DNA of 23,424 nt. Origin: Baffinella frigidus. Taxonomy: Eukaryota; Cryptophyceae; Cryptomonadales; Baffinellaceae. Below, piece by piece: positions 6,916-21,000 of the stretch. The stretch is from assembly GCA_026770585.1 (NCBI GenBank), contig MU647009.1, forward strand, positions 17,669 to 41,092, written 5' to 3'. Each line of letters begins with the position of its first letter. The stretch's first letter is position 1. The notes below the pieces were generated by a model, which was not told the DNA's origin, made no database searches, and was given only the letters and a program-made list of their open reading frames with translations. A program made the position numbers and the translations under genes.

Positions 6916-6933
6916 ATGTCCGCCGTGCTTGTG
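6916..6933 (+). CDS. GALE: GALE exon 1 (start codon)
   Basis: An 18-base first coding exon, MSAVLV. It is the natural first beta strand before the NAD-binding loop, and it joins in phase 0 to exon 2 to give [14 protein letters not shown]. The donor is GTGAGG, the best donor in the gene. The 74-bp intron is the shortest. It was chosen because no other nearby ATG gives a hydrophobic strand in phase with exon 2. Confidence 0.8.

Positions 6934-21000: not shown

Follow-up and report, generated by a model that had tools for sequence, protein, structure and literature searches.

The window analysed here is a stretch of 23,424 nucleotides of Baffinella frigidus DNA. It covers positions 17669-41092 of its contig, which is 41,092 bp long and belongs to an assembly with 1364 contigs and 382 Mb in total. 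The dinoflagellate spliced-leader sequence, looked for with up to one mismatch, gave no match, and a dinoflagellate identity was rejected. The window begins with an (AT)n run (1-95) and ends, at the contig end, with a C homopolymer (23400-23424). The window carries the gene for UDP-glucose 4-epimerase (GALE), which extends from start codon to stop codon over 6916..21000 on the + strand. The gene is divided into 15 exons of 18-110 nt that together encode 343 amino acids in 1032 nt. Exons were spliced by hand, with the border between exons 13 and 14 set at 19253/19758. This splicing reproduced the 1032-nt coding frame proposed in an earlier note on this DNA and yields a full-length GALE: residues 3-340 of the 343 can be aligned with GALE chains in the PDB at a best E of 4e-128 and without a long insert. 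The introns comprise 13 of the GT-AG type and one, intron 9, of the GC-AG type with its GC donor at 15542/15543, on which ground the intervening DNA was rejected as ciliate-type eliminated segments; pointer repeats were judged by eye.

Partial exon copies in the introns of GALE

The introns of GALE contain partial copies of the exons that border them. At a Smith-Waterman score of at least 28, there are 23 same-strand copies, every one in an intron adjoining its parent exon. The opposite strand of the window has no GALE exon copies at this score, and none are found in non-adjacent introns and flanks, a search space 12 times larger (309,562 versus 26,078 bp). The copies derive from 11 of the 15 exons, namely exons 4-14, all of which the earlier note had claimed to have such copies. 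Exons 1, 2, 3, and 15, described there as free of them, indeed have none in the noncoding DNA of the window at the same threshold. Two members of the set are weak, with scores of 28 and 29. Matches between exons and noncoding DNA of at least 32 bits number 21, all on the + strand; 40 dinucleotide shuffles gave 0.03 such matches on average and never more than 1. In a search of the readable part of the genome, exon 5 retrieves itself, its three local copies, and nothing further (four candidates, all four scored). A more sensitive unit scan compared nine introns with the unit next to them, either an exon with the intron tail before it or an exon with the intron head behind it, and revealed weaker extra pieces. 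All features described below lie on the + strand.

Exon 4 (8382..8437) has one copy, located downstream, of its nucleotides 20-48 of 56 (8868..8896, score 38). Exon 5 (10282..10391) has three. The first is an interior piece upstream of the exon, covering nt 16-53 (9173..9210). The other two belong to units that join the tail of intron 4 to the 5′ part of exon 5 and retain an acceptor AG, one at 9347..9501 with 81 nt of intron tail and an exon match at 9428-9487, the other at 9692..9827 with nt 1-71 of the exon (exon match 9758-9827). Between these two, the unit scan places a decayed unit at 9506..9688, composed of intron-4 tail (9506-9569) and the start of exon 5 (9659-9688). Exon 6 (11343..11402) is represented by two copies with an acceptor AG, of nt 1-34 (11071..11104) and nt 1-21 (11226..11246). 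Exon 7 (13860..13925) has a single copy of nt 33-64 of 66 with a donor GT (14237..14268), and the unit scan adds weaker copies of its unit at 14101-14168 and 14385-14453. Both copies of exon 8 (14492..14536) also have a donor GT; they cover nt 16-45 (14690..14719) and nt 5-45 (14863..14903), the latter without an acceptor.

Exon 9 (15438..15542), the exon with the GC donor, has the most copies with four. An interior piece of nt 16-48 lies upstream (15087..15119), and three units carry the head of intron 9 behind exon sequence. The unit at 15666..15950 contains nt 3-105 (15666-15755) with a donor GT and no acceptor, that at 15954..16079 contains nt 81-105 (15954-15978) and retains the GC donor, and that at 16081..16135 contains nt 68-104 (16081-16117) with a donor GT. 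Exon 10 (16455..16520) has an upstream copy of nt 7-25 with AG at the acceptor place (16298..16316), the weakest of the set at a score of 28, and two copies with a donor GT, of nt 46-66 (16642..16662) and nt 45-66 (16925..16946). The three copies of exon 11 (18011..18116) all start at its first nucleotide behind an acceptor AG and extend to nt 26 (17329..17354), nt 65 (17474..17538), and nt 57 (17817..17868). The one copy of exon 12 (18640..18710), of nt 1-42, has lost the acceptor (18406..18447). Exon 13 (19191..19253) has an upstream copy of nt 3-24 with AG at the acceptor place (19049..19070, score 29) and a copy of nt 34-63 with a donor GT (19328..19357), and the unit scan assigns a further unit at 19442-19518 to its downstream array. 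Finally, nt 1-42 of exon 14 (19758..19820) recur behind an acceptor AG at 19604..19645 with 100% identity.

Structure of the duplicated units

The copied sequence does not stop at the exon border. Units span a splice junction and bring neighbouring intron sequence with them, so a description as exon-only fragments is wrong. The clearest pair, 9347-9487 and 10201-10341, is 93% identical over 141 bp, of which 81 nt belong to intron 4 and 60 nt to exon 5. Rows of the flank extension with an identity of 1.00 are self-overlaps and were set aside.

Units are often packed head to tail. In intron 9, exon 9 with its intron head is followed by the units at 15666-15950, 15954-16079, and 16081-16135, separated by gaps of 3 and 1 nt. 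The gaps between units are 4, 89, 3, and 15 nt in intron 4, and those between pieces in intron 10 are 2, 0, and 38 nt. Adjacency was tested against random placement in introns 4, 9, 10, 12, and 13. Six of the nine gaps in introns 4, 9, and 10 are 0-4 nt (P 0.0002-0.0006), adjacency is weaker in intron 13 (P=0.02), and it is not significant in intron 12 (P=0.57). The step from unit to unit has a median of 155 bp and falls within 104-238 bp in 23 of 25 cases; the two larger steps, of 366 and 467 bp, stem from single copies. Altogether, recognisable copies of exon-border units make up 2,753 of 8,171 nt, or about one third of introns 4, 5, and 7-13 together, a sum of unit pieces that includes some low-complexity matches. 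Unit junctions were judged by eye and are too decayed for exact duplication breakpoints or microhomology.

Copied part and splice sites

Which part of an exon is copied depends on the side of the exon where the copy lies. Upstream copies hold the 5′ part and downstream copies the 3′ part, and for GALE alone a test of copy midpoints by side gives p=6e-5 (13 upstream, 10 downstream). Among the upstream copies, 11 of 13 reach the 5′ end of the exon and none of the 13 the 3′ end, and nine of the ten downstream copies reach the 3′ end. Counted by the one end they contain, 11 upstream copies have the 5′ end alone and eight downstream copies the 3′ end alone (p=1.3e-5). The copy at 15666 is nearly the whole of exon 9, minus its first two bases and the acceptor. 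Three copies fit the rule imperfectly: those at 9173-9210 and 15087-15119 are interior, and the exon 4 copy ends 8 nt before the exon end. This side rule is what duplication across a single splice junction produces, whereas random insertion of exon pieces would not.

The splice sites follow the same division. Scored only where a copy comes within 7 nt of the exon end concerned, ten of the 23 copies have an acceptor AG only, nine a donor GT or GC only, four neither, and none both. The “decoy-exon layer” suggested in the earlier note thus holds as a description of anatomy, in the form of 10 acceptor-only and 9 donor-only half-exons. Whole exons with both sites occur in 0 of the 14 GALE arrays against 6.6 expected from random duplications (P about 1e-4), an expectation built from unit and exon lengths with the arrays treated as independent. 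Without two far single copies, there are 0 in 12 against 5.2 expected (P=0.0008), and the seven multi-copy arrays taken by themselves have none against 2.7 (P=0.025).

Chaperonin and actin loci

Two further families were sampled, chaperonin (PF00118) and actin (PF00022). They were picked non-randomly, for their conservation and multiple exons, and their exon ends are the ends of profile matches rather than confirmed splice sites. At the chaperonin loci on contigs C94, C6, C39, and C1202, six of 14 profile-located exons have same-strand copies, nine in total; no copies lie on the opposite strand, and the C39 locus has no copies at all. Actin on contigs C869, C217, and C291 gave 12 profile matches, or 11 after one pair was merged. 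Same-strand copies are present for six of these 11 exons, all in C869 and C217; four C869 exons have none, and the C291 locus has intronic matches only. The actin loci also contain one opposite-strand match (score 31, C217 39655-39672). One actin exon of C217 has three upstream copies of its 5′ part behind an acceptor AG and three downstream copies of its 3′ part that have GT, in two cases, or GC, in one, at the donor place.

Pooling of 45 copies (23 from GALE, 9 from chaperonin, 13 from actin) separates the two sides completely. Midpoints within the exon are at most 0.34 for upstream copies (n=22) and at least 0.49 for downstream copies (n=23), with U=0 and p=9.8e-9. Left out of the pool were both rows of locus L043 (one mostly intron tail, the other a whole-exon copy), L044 (the same pair as L043), L033 (counted as a locus without an exon copy, since its three same-strand matches are intronic and located between two exon pieces), L034 (a match that begins before the exon, with four exon copies and one intronic match), the opposite-strand match in C217, and matches that link chaperonin paralogues from different contigs. 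When the four exon copies of L034 are added, the side rule still holds, with 24 copies upstream and 25 downstream.

The single counter-example seen to the half-exon pattern comes from actin. A 54-nt exon of C217, a length that is a multiple of three, is present twice, each time with AG before and GT after it. At L043/L044 (C217 43844-44186, - strand), the duplicated actin exon encodes WDDMEKIW in one version and WDNMENIW in the other. The second exon is a candidate for either a mutually exclusive exon or a young, decaying copy.

Other repeats

Telomere-like repeats are frequent in the introns of GALE and mostly in one orientation. Read on the sense strand, introns 3-13 (7418-19757) have 68 CCCTAAA against 7 TTTAGGG. 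The corresponding counts in gene sense at the chaperonin loci (L019-L032), which take in whole loci, are 43:3 for C94, 18:1 for C6, 4:0 for C39, and 1:0 for C1202, and all of these counts overlap inside arrays. Upstream intergenic DNA has 15:21, without a strong strand bias. The CCCTAAA form contains neither AG nor GT, and its prevalence in the sense orientation may for that reason be due to selection against decoy splice sites.

Inverted repeats are present as well. An imperfect, MITE-like palindromic element of about 105-113 bp occurs at 2652-2764, 16979-17091, and 21898-22008, that is, in intergenic DNA and in intron 10, with copies 88-99% identical. Long self-complementary stretches lie at 4378-4532, 9922-10123, 13290-13331, 20455-20681, and 22752-22831. 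A local inverted partner is found for 29 of 106 tiles in introns, 26 of 86 in intergenic DNA, and none of the 15 exons.

Origin of the half-exons

The copies are very probably remnants of serial, local tandem duplications across splice junctions that have been filtered by selection. A segment of about 100-240 bp straddling a splice junction, composed of intron tail and exon start or of exon end and intron head, would be duplicated in place, sometimes repeatedly; replication slippage or unequal exchange may perform the copying step. Since the protein depends on it, the unit beside the true exon would be preserved. Outer units would mutate, acquire hairpin insertions and telomere-like repeats, and turn into intron, and introns would lengthen inward from their bordering exons. 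Since the introns predate the copies, the process would be one of intron growth and not intron gain. Whole-exon copies, which have both splice sites, are probably recognised as exons and purged by selection unless they are harmless, and half-exons are probably ignored since the second splice site is missing, which amounts to exon definition. The copies are most likely decoys without a function of their own.

A bolder form of this reading is that, across this lineage, duplication focused on splice junctions makes introns grow, mainly outward from the exon borders, and leaves most genes with ladders of near-identical, one-sided decoy splice sites. We regard it as possible but doubtful. If it is true, correct splicing rests on strict exon definition, almost only half-exons survive the selection on whole-exon copies, and nature has put the choice of splice sites to an experiment across the whole genome.

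The alternative that survives best, although we consider it unlikely, is that exon borders are targeted. A process linked to repair or transcription, for instance through splicing-linked R-loops, would copy exon borders and thereby actively build introns. A local same-strand partner is found for 10 of 15 exons and for 24 of 106 intron tiles, some of which fall within exon arrays; exons exceed introns in this rate (p=0.001), and shuffled intron tiles put to the same test have no partner in 106. Faster decay of noncoding parents is insufficient to account for the difference. In simulations of such extra decay, 68-92% of copies are still seen, with 82% at the middle setting; decay therefore hides only 8-32% of copies, and part of the excess at exon borders is unexplained. 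Furthermore, random duplications of 155 bp are estimated to miss exons mostly, yet the 14 arrays that touch exons outnumber the intron-only arrays observed. Against targeting, upstream intergenic DNA has partners for 26 of 60 tiles, a rate similar to that of exons (Fisher p=0.15), and downstream intergenic DNA for 4 of 26. Tandem repeats of many sizes occur across the window, outside GALE too, and simple tandem arrays, common in introns, were masked before counting and so are not included in the intron rate. The proposal in the earlier note, that introns are built from exon borders by a process at work across the genome, is upheld in the sampled chaperonin and actin loci; a restriction of that process to exons is not supported.

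Half-exons could also be functional, either as regulators of splicing or, in some cases, as mutually exclusive exons, which is improbable on the present evidence. The presence of exactly one splice site in 19 of the 23 GALE copies would suit a regulatory role, and the in-frame, 54-nt full copy of the actin exon with both sites would suit an alternative exon. Codon positions point the same way, if mildly. Of 65 difference sites, 38 are on third positions, for which p=0.009 against an expectation of 0.43 and p=0.11 against 0.5, and the difference rates per site are about 3.8, 5.4, and 14% for the three positions. For a neutral copy next to a parent under constraint, up to about half of the differences are expected on third positions, and the difference sites are not independent of each other. 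The third-position excess allows for a constrained or coding past in some of the copies. On the other side, a splice dinucleotide is present at 19 of the 22 exon ends reached, about what a divergence of roughly 9% would leave. All four indels in the exon-copy alignments lie inside copies and break the frame. No GALE copy has both sites, and therefore none resembles an ordinary cassette exon.

Introns born by tandem duplication of exonic AGGT segments would likewise contain exon-derived sequence. The mechanism is a known one, in which such duplication makes a new intron from an exon, and the text available from its description predicts an intron with the 5′ part of the downstream exon first and the 3′ part of the upstream exon last (PMC3443670). 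All five introns of GALE with copies from both sides (introns 4, 8, 9, 10, and 13) show the reverse, with the copies of the upstream exon first. The copied units also include intron tail or head, of which the mechanism predicts none, and an origin of the GALE introns by this route is very improbable.

Insertion of reverse-transcribed or transposon-borne exon fragments appeals to transposition as the usual source of intron content, but is hardly credible: the units include intron flank, the copies found keep to one strand and to the vicinity of their parent and follow the side rule, and the window searches gave no copy of joined exons. An assembly or haplotype artefact, which the terminal C run and the long simple repeats of the contig might suggest, is just as implausible, because copy-parent identities range from 76 to 100% (differences of 0-24%) with private substitutions and 4 indels, and because unrelated genes, on five other contigs, are laid out in the same way.

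Implications and comparison with known systems

If the copies are indeed decayed tandem duplications of the neighbouring exon edge, the introns of GALE illustrate one way in which introns can lengthen. Long introns are usually attributed to transposons. The half-exons are natural test cases for how cells discriminate real exons from decoys: upstream 3′ splice sites are 93% identical to the real one across as much as 81 nt of intron and 60 nt of exon, and have no partner donor. The near rule of one splice site per copy is a testable footprint of exon definition.

Mutually exclusive exons in animals usually arise by tandem exon duplication, which likewise places a same-strand exon duplicate beside its parent. 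That process involves whole exons with both sites that are put to use, whereas nearly all copies seen here are half-exons that lack one or both splice sites. Here there are also often several copies per intron, and about half or more of the sampled exons are affected. Intronic minisatellites, as commonly described, likewise form head-to-tail arrays, with units of about 100-240 bp, and these arrays grow and decay. The GALE arrays differ in being anchored on a splice junction, with one edge of the unit inside a coding exon.

Intron gain by tandem genomic duplication has in common with GALE a local duplication that involves exon and splice sites, as far as the available text sets it out (PMC3443670). 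In GALE, by comparison, existing introns are lengthened by intron-bearing units, and the order of the copies is reversed. Introners, as portrayed in the accessible portions of two reports on intron-rich protists (PMC11453091, PMC12730881), resemble the present case in the mass production of intron sequence, the intron-rich genome, and the hairpin elements, which are also found in GALE introns. They differ in that the exon copies of GALE, as far as the window search and the genome search with exon 5 extend, are local, form no dispersed families, and create no introns; self-comparison of the window reveals no shared whole-intron family. Intron gain and increase in intron size are discussed for the intron-rich, 214-Mb genome of Amorphochlora, whose intron section (section 3.4) does not mention exon copies (PMC12730881). 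A limited literature search, by title and the start of abstracts and with few subscription journals, produced no matching report of half-exon arrays in introns among the papers listed. The arrays are most plausibly an extreme example, spread over several genes, of a familiar type of mutation, local tandem duplication, which selection on exons and splice sites has made legible.
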